Of a DNA stretch of 28,435 nt, positions 7,044 to 12,288 are shown piece by piece. The position numbers were made by a program, and so were the translations under genes. A model generated the notes under the pieces. That model was given only the letters and a program-made list of their open reading frames with translations, was not told the origin of the DNA and did not search any database. The DNA is from a virus, in the IMG/VR virus record IMGVR_UViG_3300042471_000360, positions 1-28,435 of that record; one strand, 5' to 3'. Position 1 is the first letter of the stretch; every line of letters starts with the position of its first letter.

Positions 7044-7045
7044 TC

Positions 7046-7054
7046 TGGTATACT
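7046..7054 (+). promoter_or_regulatory. Extended -10 promoter (TGGTATACT), leaderless configuration
   Basis: TG-G-TATACT begins 2 nt after the stop of the jelly-roll gene. The hexamer ends 7 nt before ATG 7062, so transcription should start at or next to the A of the start codon. No Shine-Dalgarno lies between, which fits leaderless translation. Confidence 0.65.
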
Positions 7055-9145: not shown

Positions 9146-10450
9146 ATGATTATAAATAAAGCACAATGGACTACAGATGGCGACAATGTTCGCTTCTCTA
9201 TGCCTATTGGCAAAGTAGACCAAGAGCGTCGTATCGTTTCTGGCTTTGCTACATTGGACAATGTAGACAAGCAGGGCGATATTGTCACAACTGAAGCAAG
9301 TATAGACGCAGTTAAGAAATTCCGTGGCAACCTTCGTGAAATGCATCAGCCTAGTGCTGTAGGAAAGGTTGTTTCATTTAAAGAAGATCGTTATTTTGAT
9401 CCTAGAGAAAAAAAGTTTTATAGTGGAGTATATGTTTCCGCATATGTTTCAAAAGGAGCCCAAGATACTTGGGAGAAAGTTCTTGACGGTACTTTAACTG
9501 GATTTTCAATTGGTGGAAATATTACAAAGTCTGATGACATGTATGATGAAAAAATTGATAAATCAGTGCGTATAATTAAAGAATATGATCTGCATGAATT
9601 GTCTCTAGTAGATAATCCAGCAAACCAGTTTGCCAATGTAATTTCTATTGAAAAAGGACAGCTTGGTGGTTTTCTTGCAAAAGCTGTTGTAGATACAGTT
9701 TACTGGTGCGGTTCAGATGACATAGTTAGACTATCAAAAGAGTCTGACGAAAATTGTCCATCTTGCAATGACACAATGAAAAATATTGGATTTGTTGAAG
9801 ATCAAAATGATACAGAAACACTAAAGTTCTTAGTTGATAGTGCAAAAGGCATTAAGACAATTAAGATAACAAAGGAGGAAAATCCTATGACAGAAGAAAC
9901 AAAAGAGACAGCTCCAGCATTGCTTGCTGAGGGTGAGTCAGTTGTTCCAAATGTTGAGGTTGCTCCAGAGGCTCCAGCAGAAGAAGCACCAGCAGAAGTT
10001 TCTGCAGATGTTCCAGCAGCAGAGCCAGTGGCAGAGGAAGCAGTAGCTGCAGTGGATGCTCCTGCTATTGATGATATAGCAGAAAAAGCAGTTGATGCAG
10101 TTGTTGATACAGCTGCTGAAATTGCAAAGTCTGTTTCAGAAATTAATACCTCTGTAACTAATGCCTTGAGCAATCTTGCAGAAACAGTAAAAGCTATGCA
10201 AGCAAATGTTGATGCAATAACAAAGTCCCTTGAAACAGTTACAGGCGAAGTAAAGTCTGTAGCAAGTGAGGTAAGCCAAGTAAAGGGAACTTTTAATGAG
10301 TTTGGAAAGCGAGTAGATCTTGTTGAAAAAGATACGGCTTTCCGCAAGTCTGGCGATCTAGGCGAGATCGTACAGGAGCCTGTTGTAAAACAGGTTCAAA
10401 AATCCCTATGGGGCGGTCGTTTCCTCACAAATGCCGACCTATTTAACTAA
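9146..10450 (+). CDS. Prohead protease (S78-type) fused in frame to capsid scaffold domain
   Basis: Residues ~20-170 form an HK97/XkdF-like prohead serine protease: RRIVSGFATLDNVDKQGDIV, catalytic His67 in REMHQPSAVGKV, nucleophile Ser121 in LTGFSIGG, and an LHELSLVDNPAN segment with Glu151 as possible third member. A small cysteine region follows (C188, then CPSC at 204-207), perhaps a degenerate zinc ribbon. After about residue 248 comes an Ala/Pro/Glu-rich stretch, then a long helical coiled-coil region (about 275-400), and a C-terminal tail KSLWGGRFLTNADLFN that may bind capsid protein. Full length is 434 residues. The enzyme matures the prohead by cleaving scaffold and capsid arms; the fusion would deliver it into the shell. 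An internal start at 9887 probably yields free scaffold. A promoter lies directly upstream and the capsid gene follows 27 nt later. Protease assignment is strong; scaffold assignment is from composition and position. Confidence 0.88.
   Translation: MIINKAQWTTDGDNVRFSMPIGKVDQERRIVSGFATLDNVDKQGDIVTTEASIDAVKKFRGNLREMHQPSAVGKVVSFKEDRYFDPREKKFYSGVYVSAYVSKGAQDTWEKVLDGTLTGFSIGGNITKSDDMYDEKIDKSVRIIKEYDLHELSLVDNPANQFANVISIEKGQLGGFLAKAVVDTVYWCGSDDIVRLSKESDENCPSCNDTMKNIGFVEDQNDTETLKFLVDSAKGIKTIKITKEENPMTEETKETAPALLAEGESVVPNVEVAPEAPAEEAPAEVSADVPAAEPVAEEAVAAVDAPAIDDIAEKAVDAVVDTAAEIAKSVSEINTSVTNALSNLAETVKAMQANVDAITKSLETVTGEVKSVASEVSQVKGTFNEFGKRVDLVEKDTAFRKSGDLGEIVQEPVVKQVQKSLWGGRFLTNADLFN
9871..9878 (+). 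promoter_or_regulatory. Strong internal Shine-Dalgarno (AAAGGAGG) for nested scaffold start
   Basis: AAAGGAGG is nearly complementary to the 16S rRNA 3' end and stands 8 nt before an in-frame ATG at 9887. It encodes only TKEE in the protease frame. It is stronger than the ribosome sites of most neighbouring genes, including the protease itself, which has none. Confidence 0.7.
9887..10450 (+). CDS. Nested scaffolding protein translated from within the protease ORF
   Basis: ATG 9887 is codon 248 of the protease ORF and is in frame with it. It begins MTEETKETAPALLAEGE and would give a 187-residue acidic, Ala/Glu-rich then coiled-coil protein ending in the same LWGGRFLTNADLFN tail. The upstream AAAGGAGG at 9871-9878 with 8-nt spacing is what supports separate translation. 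Scaffolding proteins are typically small, acidic and helical, are needed in far greater amounts than protease, and leave the prohead during maturation. The layout matches the known lambda arrangement in which Nu3 scaffold is made from an internal start in the C protease gene. That this start is used is an inference from the ribosome site; only protein data would prove it. Confidence 0.68.
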   Translation: MTEETKETAPALLAEGESVVPNVEVAPEAPAEEAPAEVSADVPAAEPVAEEAVAAVDAPAIDDIAEKAVDAVVDTAAEIAKSVSEINTSVTNALSNLAETVKAMQANVDAITKSLETVTGEVKSVASEVSQVKGTFNEFGKRVDLVEKDTAFRKSGDLGEIVQEPVVKQVQKSLWGGRFLTNADLFN

Positions 10451-10477: not shown

Positions 10478-11623
10478 ATGTCGGAACAAGAAATCGTAAA
10501 GAATTATCCAGGTGCTCCAACCATATCCCATCAACATGGTGGTGATGGTGCTTTTGCATCAGGTGATATTGGAGGTGCAACGGCTACAAGCCCAAGCACA
10601 TCTGATATTGGTGCTAACCTAGGTAATATCGCTACACCTGAATGGGGTGCTACGACTGGAGCAAACGCAGTAAATCCTACTGGTACTCCAGGTGGTATTC
10701 TCCTTCCAGAGCAGGCTCGCCGCTTCATTGACTATGTGTGGGATGCAACAGTTCTCGCCAAAGATGGTCGTAGAGTTACAATGCGAGCAAACACCATGGA
10801 ACTTGAAAAAGTTAACGTTGGTGAGCGTGTTATTCGTGCTGCTGCACAAGCAAGCAACGATTATACAAACGCTGGTGCTACATTCACAAAGGTAGAGCTA
10901 ACAACCAAAAAGATTCGTCTTGATTGGGAAGTATCTACTGAAGCGCTTGAAGACAATATTGAAGGAGGTGCGTTGGAAGATCATCTAGTTCGCTTGATGA
11001 CCAATGCATTTGCTAATGATATTGAAGATCTAGCAATTAACGGTACTGGAAATGGTGGAGATGGAGCATTCCTCTCTATTATGGAAGGTTTCGTTCCAAA
11101 AGTTGTAGATGGTTCAGATGCTCATGAAGCAGTTGTTACTGTTTCTGACGATGCCTGGACTACAGAGGTAATGCAGGATATTATTCTTGCAATGCCACGT
11201 AAGTATCGTGCACTTAAGACTAATCTTAAGTTCTATGCTGGTACTGACGCATTCCAGGGTATCGTAAAGAACAACGGTACACTTGCTGACGCTATTGCTG
11301 AAGCTTTTGCTCCACGCACTGGTGGTACAGAGCGCAACCGTCAAGCATATCTTGATGGTGCTGCACAAACATTCGGTGGAGCACGTACAACCCGTGTTCT
11401 CGGAATTGACGTTCAAGAAGTTCCTTATTACCCAGGCGGATATGTTGACCTAACATTCCCTGCCAACCGTGTATGGGGCTTCCAGCGTGATATCACGGTA
11501 AATCGTGAATACAAGCCAAAGAAGGATACAATTGAATACACAGTATTCGTCCGCTTTGGTTTGCAATGGGAAGAGCTTGATGCAGTCGCTTATGCGGATG
11601 CAGCAGTTGACCCAACCGCATAG
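10478..11623 (+). CDS. Major capsid protein (HK97 fold)
   Basis: This protein builds the icosahedral shell. The start is ATG 10478: AGGAGGT at 10464-10470 lies 7 nt upstream, whereas a GTG at 10469 overlaps that ribosome site and cannot use it. The 381-residue product has an N-terminal arm (residues 1-70) rich in Gly, Ala and Ser with YPGAPTISHQHGGDGA, then GGILLPEQARRFIDYVWDATVL, an E-loop-like region with strands (ELEKVNVGERVI), the spine-helix region LEDHLVRLMTNAFANDIEDLAINGTG, a P-domain segment around DDAWTTEVMQDIILAMPRKYR, and an A-domain ending with RFGLQWEELDAVAYADA. Arginine codons are mostly CGT/CGC, unlike the AGA-rich flanking genes, consistent with high expression. It is followed by a stable hairpin and then by a short gene copying its N-terminal arm. 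Confidence 0.92.
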   Translation: MSEQEIVKNYPGAPTISHQHGGDGAFASGDIGGATATSPSTSDIGANLGNIATPEWGATTGANAVNPTGTPGGILLPEQARRFIDYVWDATVLAKDGRRVTMRANTMELEKVNVGERVIRAAAQASNDYTNAGATFTKVELTTKKIRLDWEVSTEALEDNIEGGALEDHLVRLMTNAFANDIEDLAINGTGNGGDGAFLSIMEGFVPKVVDGSDAHEAVVTVSDDAWTTEVMQDIILAMPRKYRALKTNLKFYAGTDAFQGIVKNNGTLADAIAEAFAPRTGGTERNRQAYLDGAAQTFGGARTTRVLGIDVQEVPYYPGGYVDLTFPANRVWGFQRDITVNREYKPKKDTIEYTVFVRFGLQWEELDAVAYADAAVDPTA

Positions 11624-11641: not shown

Positions 11642-11673
11642 TTAGGGAGGGCAGCGTAAGTTGCCCTCCTTAA
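11642..11673 (+). terminator. Stable hairpin after the major capsid gene
   Basis: TTAGGGAGGGCA (11642-11653) pairs with TGCCCTCCTTAA (11662-11673) in 12 base pairs with one G-T and an 8-nt loop, 18 nt after the capsid stop codon. No good T-tract follows, so it may be an attenuator or a 3'-end mRNA stabiliser rather than a full terminator. The next gene has its own ribosome site but no visible promoter. Confidence 0.7.
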
Positions 11674-11688
11674 TCATTAGGAGAACAA

Positions 11689-11901
11689 ATGTCATATCCA
11701 GGAAATCCAACTATAAATCATCAACACAGTGGTGATGGAGCAATAGCTGCTGGTGGCATAGGAACAGTTATTAGTGGACCCAATGGAATTATTACAGAAA
11801 GATTTGCAATGGGGTGTATCCCTACAGCAAACTTTGGAGAAAATATAATAATGAGTGGAACTCCTGCTGGTATAAGAAAACCACAAACATTTAGAAGATA
11901 G
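11689..11901 (+). CDS. 70-residue protein resembling the N-terminal arm of the major capsid protein
   Basis: ATG 11689 is preceded by AGGAGA at 11679-11684. Residues 3-25 match capsid residues 10-32 through the shared pattern YPGxPTIxHQHxGDGAxAxGxIG, and the last 14 residues (GTPAGIRKPQTFRR) match capsid residues 69-83 (GTPGGILLPEQARRF). The part between differs. The gene therefore looks like a shortened paralog of the capsid N-terminal arm, ending where the shell fold begins. It contains no domain able to form a shell. It sits between the capsid hairpin and the next promoter, so it probably depends on capsid read-through. Possible roles are a cement or decoration peptide, a competitor for scaffold or protease, or a component that reuses an arm-docking site. 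Function is unknown; the similarity is directly visible. Confidence 0.75.
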   Translation: MSYPGNPTINHQHSGDGAIAAGGIGTVISGPNGIITERFAMGCIPTANFGENIIMSGTPAGIRKPQTFRR

Positions 11902-11907
11902 TAACTC

Positions 11908-11916
11908 TGATATAAT
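11908..11916 (+). promoter_or_regulatory. Extended -10 promoter (TGATATAAT) for the neck operon
   Basis: A perfect TGnTATAAT lies 6 nt after the preceding stop codon. The predicted start near 11923 coincides with the Shine-Dalgarno GGAGG (11923-11927), giving a leader of about 9 nt to ATG 11932. No convincing -35 is seen. Downstream genes through the tail terminator gene are packed with little or no gap and likely share this message. Confidence 0.7.
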
Positions 11917-11931
11917 AGCAGTGGAGGATTT

Positions 11932-12288
11932 ATGTCAACAACAAAAGAAGTAGTAGATAAATTTAGTAAAATGACAATGCCACAATTAAAGTCATATGCA
12001 AAAAAAAATAAAATAGATTTAGTTGGTGCAAATACAAAGATAGAAATATTAGAGGCCATATTGCCTTTTGTTCCTAGAGAAGATGAAAAAAAAGAATCTA
12101 AGAAAGTAGAAAATCCAAAAGAAAAAGTTGCTGTTTATTCAAATCGCAATATTCATTGGAATGGGGTGGGGGCTCTTGAAAAGGGCTATAATATAATTAC
12201 AAAGGAGGCATCCGTTAAATGGCTAACTCACAAGAGTGTTCGTCAAGCAACACCAGAAGAAGTGGCCAAGTATTACGGTAAAATCTAA
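11932..12288 (+). CDS. Small head-region protein with HeH/SAP-like N-terminal motif
   Basis: The 118-residue protein has a helix-extended-helix-like motif near residues 13-45 (MTMPQLKSYAKKNKIDLVGANTKIEILEAIL, given here as MPQLKSYAKKN...KIEILEAIL), similar to SAP, HeH or Rho-N folds that often bind nucleic acid. A charged Lys/Glu linker follows (about 50-66), then a compact C-terminal region (VAVYSNRNIHWNG to EEVAKYYGKI). Phage genes of this type often lie between capsid and connector genes and have been linked to head completion or packaging. It starts 16 nt after the -10 element with GGAGG at 11923-11927, and its stop overlaps the next start (TAATG). The SAP/HeH reading is by eye and the exact role is uncertain. 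Confidence 0.65.
   Translation: MSTTKEVVDKFSKMTMPQLKSYAKKNKIDLVGANTKIEILEAILPFVPREDEKKESKKVENPKEKVAVYSNRNIHWNGVGALEKGYNIITKEASVKWLTHKSVRQATPEEVAKYYGKI

Follow-up and report, generated by a model that had tools for sequence, protein, structure and literature searches.

The stretch of viral DNA analysed here (the window; positions 1–28,435, the full length used, of IMG/VR record IMGVR_UViG_3300042471_000360) encodes, next to its major capsid protein (MCP), a 70-residue protein that resembles the N-terminal arm of that MCP. The locus raises the question of where a free-standing copy of a capsid arm came from and what it might do. The first-pass annotation had proposed a partial tandem duplication in which only the two ends of the arm were kept, the product now serving as a cement peptide, a competitor for arm-binding sites, or a protease or scaffold partner. 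The features of the locus are collected in Table 1.

Table 1. Features of the capsid locus, in window coordinates
Feature	Position	Strand	Evidence
Prohead protease with C-terminal coiled-coil (probable scaffold) region	9146–10450	+	Peptidase_S78 4e-7; phrog_9427 head maturation protease 2.5e-118
Major capsid protein, 381 aa, HK97 fold from about residue 77	10478–11623	+	Pfam Phage_capsid 1.5e-6; phrog_1623 5e-70; model
Stretch of the MCP arm with homology to the small protein (MCP residues 9–82)	10502–10723	+	Genome search E 7.8e-10; disordered in monomer model
GC-rich hairpin 3′ of the MCP stop	11644–11671	+	11-pair helix; covariation
Ribosome-binding site of the small gene, TTAGGAG	11677–11683	+	Sequence; AGGAG/AAGGA conserved in gap-sequence alignment
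Small protein, 70 aa, free-standing paralog of the MCP's N-terminal arm	11689–11901	+	ORF; alignment; profile; dN/dS
Extended −10 promoter-like site for the next gene, TCTGATATAAT	11906–11916	+	Directly 3′ of the small gene's stop
Next gene, 118 aa, N-terminal Rho_N/SAP/LEM-like domain	11932–12288	+	Weak Rho_N (Pfam); phrog_3281 1e-6; synteny

The small gene occupies the position first assigned to it, from ATG 11689 to the stop at 11901 (translation MSYPGNPTINHQHSGDGAIAAGGIGTVISGPNGIITERFAMGCIPTANFGENIIMSGTPAGIRKPQTFRR), and the YPGxPTIxHQHxGDGA and GTPxGI patterns are indeed common to its product and the MCP. The suggested comparison with shuffled sequence gave a local BLOSUM62 score of 121 between the small protein and the MCP, with maxima of 59 when the small protein was shuffled (n = 2000) and 58 when the arm was shuffled (n = 2000). 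A search of the window's own record recovered two places, the ORF itself and the MCP arm, the latter with E 7.8e-10 at 45% identity over residues 2–70, and nothing further. The C-terminal 30 residues of the small protein alone are borderline, with their score reached in 2 of 2000 shuffles; their homology is settled by profile evidence that covers them, as hhalign of 21 small proteins against 19 arms aligned 70 columns end to end with an E of 2.5e-18. The first-pass annotation regarded the middle of the two proteins as different, which holds for the window's own pair, where the small protein has diverged from the arm, but not more widely: the middle is included in the 70-column alignment and is clearly homologous in the clade of locus L028 (MCP ..TVTGPDGNLTPAASLGNIATANFG.. 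versus small protein ..TVISGPNGIITEINAMGCIPTANFG..). The idea of a tandem duplication of the arm thus stands, with the amendment that the whole arm was duplicated.

In the most divergent lineage (L183, L204 and L265), the small protein retains GPNxxNPSG and GIRLPxQ and aligns with the MCP at scores of 158–170, against shuffled maxima of 60–65; its C-terminal end is ...GPNSANPSGTPGGIRLPEQ, and the matching MCP segment ...GPNAVNPSGTPGGILLPEQ. Ten positions are invariant in arm and small protein across a 38-row alignment (Y3, P4, G5, H11, H13, G17, G50, G57, P59 and G61), and the invariance of the HxH pair would allow metal binding, as had been suggested. HxHxGDG was also considered as a tail-fibre-like motif, but nothing in the window matched beyond the two places already known.

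The MCP itself has an HK97 fold according to both Pfam and its structure model. When model residues 77–381 were compared with HK97-fold capsids, the best match was a P4 procapsid chain (Z 19.7, 260 residues, rmsd 3.5 Å). Its start is placed at ATG 10478, because GTG 10469 falls within the ribosome-binding site (AGGAGGTG) and all relatives start with MSEQ or MSE; the MCP residue numbers given earlier, counted from GTG 10469, are consequently off by three. The arm is disordered in the monomer model, with pLDDT of about 29–37 over residues 1–70. The small gene does end where the HK97 fold begins, and its product, which matches only the arm upstream of that fold, is an MCP derivative and not itself an MCP. 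The AlphaFold model of the small protein (pLDDT 48.6) contains three short strands at residues 18–38 with low confidence, and neither supports nor excludes a fold that forms upon binding or in an oligomer.

Sequence searches of Pfam, PHROGs and the PDB with the window proteins and all members of the arm and small-protein alignment returned only chance-level matches for the small protein and the arm; in particular, no beta-tulip, Ig-like or Soc sequence family was matched by the small protein in these databases, and the confidence of its model is low. No isolate with the small gene was found in the phage collection, the sole match to its product being a chance one (E 9), and none of 42 pattern matches in cellular genomes was confirmed as a relative. 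No stand-alone MCP-arm paralog is described in the part of the literature that was searched, in agreement with the earlier statement that the design belongs to no described family.

Two IMG/VR searches of 80 loci each, with much overlap, returned small proteins at 59–100% identity among the matches listed. In the first 80 loci, the small gene is immediately 3′ of the MCP gene wherever the preceding sequence is present, and the Rho_N-like gene comes next. All loci carrying the small gene have it directly behind the MCP gene, after a gap of 63–71 nt. Its product is 69–75 residues long in most loci and up to about 82 in one divergent lineage. Median pairwise dN/dS is about 0.29 for the small protein, 0.18 for the MCP arm and 0.12 for the MCP core. 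The small protein is under purifying selection, and across about 50 distinct small proteins the start, length and stop are preserved and the frames intact; neither the relaxed selection nor the broken frames of a pseudogene were found.

A DNA pattern built on the MCP arm, which took no account of the small gene, identified at least 118 loci, 84 of which were evaluable (a complete MCP and at least 300 bases 3′ of it). Among the matches listed, the small gene is present in 64 of these 84 arm-bearing loci and cleanly absent from 20. Two further loci, L090 with a broken MCP frame and L193 with an MCP/small-gene chimera, were rejected as true gene-lacking loci and excluded from this count. In L193 the MCP frame breaks off after NREYKP, from position 694, and enters the middle of the small gene, a junction that is either a deletion or an assembly chimera. 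The small gene is absent after the MCP gene in the 57.5-kb record of L194, and no second match was found anywhere in that record. In L205, a different, acidic, Lys/Glu-rich ORF of ~135 residues replaces it after the MCP gene (minus strand, below 6195).

On the MCP-core tree, the presence label changes nine times; starred branches force at least six of these changes, and the gene is present in the basal lineage. This distribution is best read as one ancient duplication followed by repeated loss; recombination moving the MCP and small genes separately would also produce it. Absence of the ORF from close relatives had been named as grounds for rejecting the homology. Such absences do occur, but they leave the homology standing because the tree reads them as repeated losses of an old gene. 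The repeated losses in turn indicate that the gene is dispensable, and in being a small, separate head-operon gene missing from 20 of 84 loci among the matches listed, with nine changes on the tree, it resembles a decoration-protein gene. Moreover, the MCP arm is nearly the same with and without the small gene, as in L056 (with) and L217 (without), whose MCPs are nearly identical. Being conserved and yet lost in several lineages, the small gene probably encodes an optional extra part of the head.

The hairpin downstream of the MCP gene has 99% of cells paired in 27 sequences and six pairs altered on both sides, and it outperforms slid and shuffled controls, lying above every slid version. The T-run 3′ of it is short, and a consensus terminator scan did not list it; it is likely a leaky terminator or an RNA 3′-end element or stabiliser. 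In the interval from the hairpin to the small gene, a promoter scan listed nothing. The extended −10-like site lies 3′ of the small gene in most loci, and where the gene is absent it immediately follows the hairpin: most of the 20 gene-lacking loci have the same hairpin type and a TCTGRTATAAT site, now adjacent, and then the next gene. The element TCTGRTATAMT recurs in the window at 1308–1318, 7044–7054 and 11906–11916, ahead of genes and with no obvious −35, and is perhaps a late promoter of this phage group.

These observations bear on whether the ORF is a non-functional remnant, or a mere RNA element between the MCP gene and the next promoter, which we regard as most improbable. Its absence from 20 of 84 arm-bearing loci (among the matches listed) and the structured RNA element just upstream are what such a reading would lead one to expect. 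However, the hairpin and promoter do not need the ORF, since both persist where it is absent, and a remnant is largely refuted by selection (dN/dS of about 0.29 over many pairs) and by the preservation of start, length and stop in about 50 distinct proteins.

The nearest isolate MCPs are those of Streptomyces phages Comrade and LukeCage and Rhodococcus phages NiceHouse and Grayson. In most cases their alignment begins at about residue 75; the N-terminus is short and lacks the arm insert of ~50 residues, and the MCP gene is followed directly by a gene in the position of the Rho_N-like one. Where phages lack the small gene, the Rho_N-like gene comes immediately after the MCP gene. More broadly, the Stanwilliamsviridae and Rhodococcus phages share a related MCP core (about 37–45% identity by tblastn) and the same order of genes, with the protease and MCP followed by the next small gene, which is Rho_N/LEM-like in several, but differ in having an N-terminus of 20–30 residues and neither arm insert nor small gene. 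Nor was the small gene found in about 70 readable loci, out of 80 listed, of armless-type IMG/VR relatives where downstream sequence is present. Since sister phages and armless relatives have neither, the arm and the small gene are thus innovations of one phage group, whose members are uncultured and probably of freshwater origin. The Rho_N/SAP/LEM-like N-terminal domain occurs on the post-capsid gene of most relatives, over a wide range of phages, and this gene is annotated as endonuclease VII or HeH/LEM in some of them.

The small proteins of the basal L265 and L183 contain GGIRLPEQ and NGIRLPSQ, where the MCP core has GGILLPEQ, and armless MCPs of other phages carry the equivalent core motif (GGLLNAEQ, GGLLKPEQ). 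The copy appears to have been made from the 5′ end of the MCP gene, because the basal small proteins include the ancestral-core GGIxLPEQ; the same observation disfavours the reverse direction, in which a stand-alone gene was fused into the MCP. Two armless-type MCPs, in L166 (3001–3165) and L169 (3001–3165), have a longer N-terminus with HTTTGDGAFSSLAANADL..., resembling HQHxGDGAFASGDIG; this may mark an intermediate in the growth of the arm or be a coincidence.

Arm and small protein show some co-variation. Distances in the two remain correlated once MCP-core distance is taken into account (partial Mantel r 0.36, 0 of 999 permutations). The residue after YPGxPT is V/I in both members of a pair or E/Q in both, for 59 of 59 pairs, although this amounts to just two changes on the tree and is suggestive only. 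Gene conversion is unsupported as a source of the similarity, as the same-codon fraction is 0.47 within a genome and 0.44 with other genomes; co-variation at the middle residue of HxH was likewise unsupported by independent pairs. Co-variation of this kind without gene conversion is consistent with a shared binding environment. The two differ in charge, the median pI being about 8.9 (basic) for the small protein and 4.4 (acidic) for the arm, and the last 12 residues of the small protein contain a median of five K/R and no D/E.

The most plausible interpretation, held tentatively, is that the small protein serves as an auxiliary, dispensable component of the capsid and relies on the contacts of the arm. 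The 5′ end of the MCP gene would have been duplicated once, before the phage group radiated, as a piece comprising the arm and the first core residues and ending at about GTPGGILLPEQ, and the copy would have been inserted between the MCP hairpin and the promoter of the next gene. Read-through of the MCP transcript past the hairpin would then transcribe it, probably at a lower dose. Retaining the HxH and glycine positions of the arm and having gained a basic C-terminal tail, the product would take sites that receive an MCP arm, or join the acidic arms, and so cement or fill positions in the shell. We infer its presence in the virion, binding mode, cementing role, location inside or outside the shell and expression level. 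That the gene was lost repeatedly while the MCP arm stayed nearly unchanged is in keeping with an accessory head protein. A more specific version, possible though doubtful, is an arm-only capsid subunit, the free duplicated arm plugging into empty or shared arm-binding sites to give a mixed arm lattice; it would offer an optional way to build or strengthen the head without a new fold.

Sequence does not discriminate between the roles first proposed (cement, competitor, and protease or scaffold partner). The delta domain of HK97 sits immediately before the capsid core, and the arm directly precedes the HK97 core in the same position. It is conceivable, if rather unlikely, that the arm is internal to the prohead, in the manner of a short delta domain, and that the small protein is an assembly-phase factor, which mixes with or competes for arm sites or, as a protease substrate or partner, tunes assembly and is absent from the mature virion. 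The locus does encode a prohead protease, contacts of the basic tail with DNA or with the protease-scaffold protein are conceivable, and a dose below that of the MCP is plausible behind the hairpin. Against this, an essential assembly role is less likely because the gene is absent in lineages whose MCP arm is unchanged, a scaffold-like coiled-coil region is already fused to the protease, and armless relatives assemble without the small protein. If the protease cuts off the MCP arm, the small protein could act during assembly only.

Some defences sense the MCP directly, namely CapRel (PMC9712102) and a TIR system that senses capsids (PMC11312562), and patchy presence is typical of counter-defence genes. 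A free arm copy might thus be a decoy that absorbs a host sensor recognising the MCP arm. We consider this quite improbable: the gene shares its head-operon position with the MCP, hence no early expression is expected, no defence is known against this arm, and capsid binding explains conservation of the whole arm equally well. The role of the protein is directly testable in natural pairs such as L056 and L217.

Returning to the favoured interpretation as an auxiliary capsid protein, accessory head proteins are already known, and an arm-only derivative seems undescribed. T4 gp24 is a vertex protein related to gp23 that keeps the whole HK97 fold. It is likewise a second structural gene derived by duplication of an MCP gene; here, however, the arm alone was copied and the shell fold is absent. 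In T7, one gene gives two products by frameshift, gp10A and gp10B, with the full MCP fold. There, too, a minor product is related to the N-terminal part of the MCP, whereas the small protein comes from a separate, diverged gene without the fold. The decoration and cement proteins (lambda gpD, L Dec, P74-26 gp87 and T4 Soc/Hoc) are similar in being products of small, dispensable accessory head genes, and the small protein is proposed to bind the shell as they do. The decoration proteins covered by one review have their own folds (beta-tulip, Ig-like), in contrast to a copy of the MCP's own arm, and neither duplicates nor paralogs turned up when the text of this review was searched (PMC7602432). 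The locus would thus represent another route to an accessory head gene, in which the flexible arm of the capsid protein is copied instead of a foreign fold being acquired. A precedent for an arm that is ordered only on the capsid is P74-26 gp87, whose capsid-binding arm lacks order in the free protein and gains it on the shell (PMC7602432).
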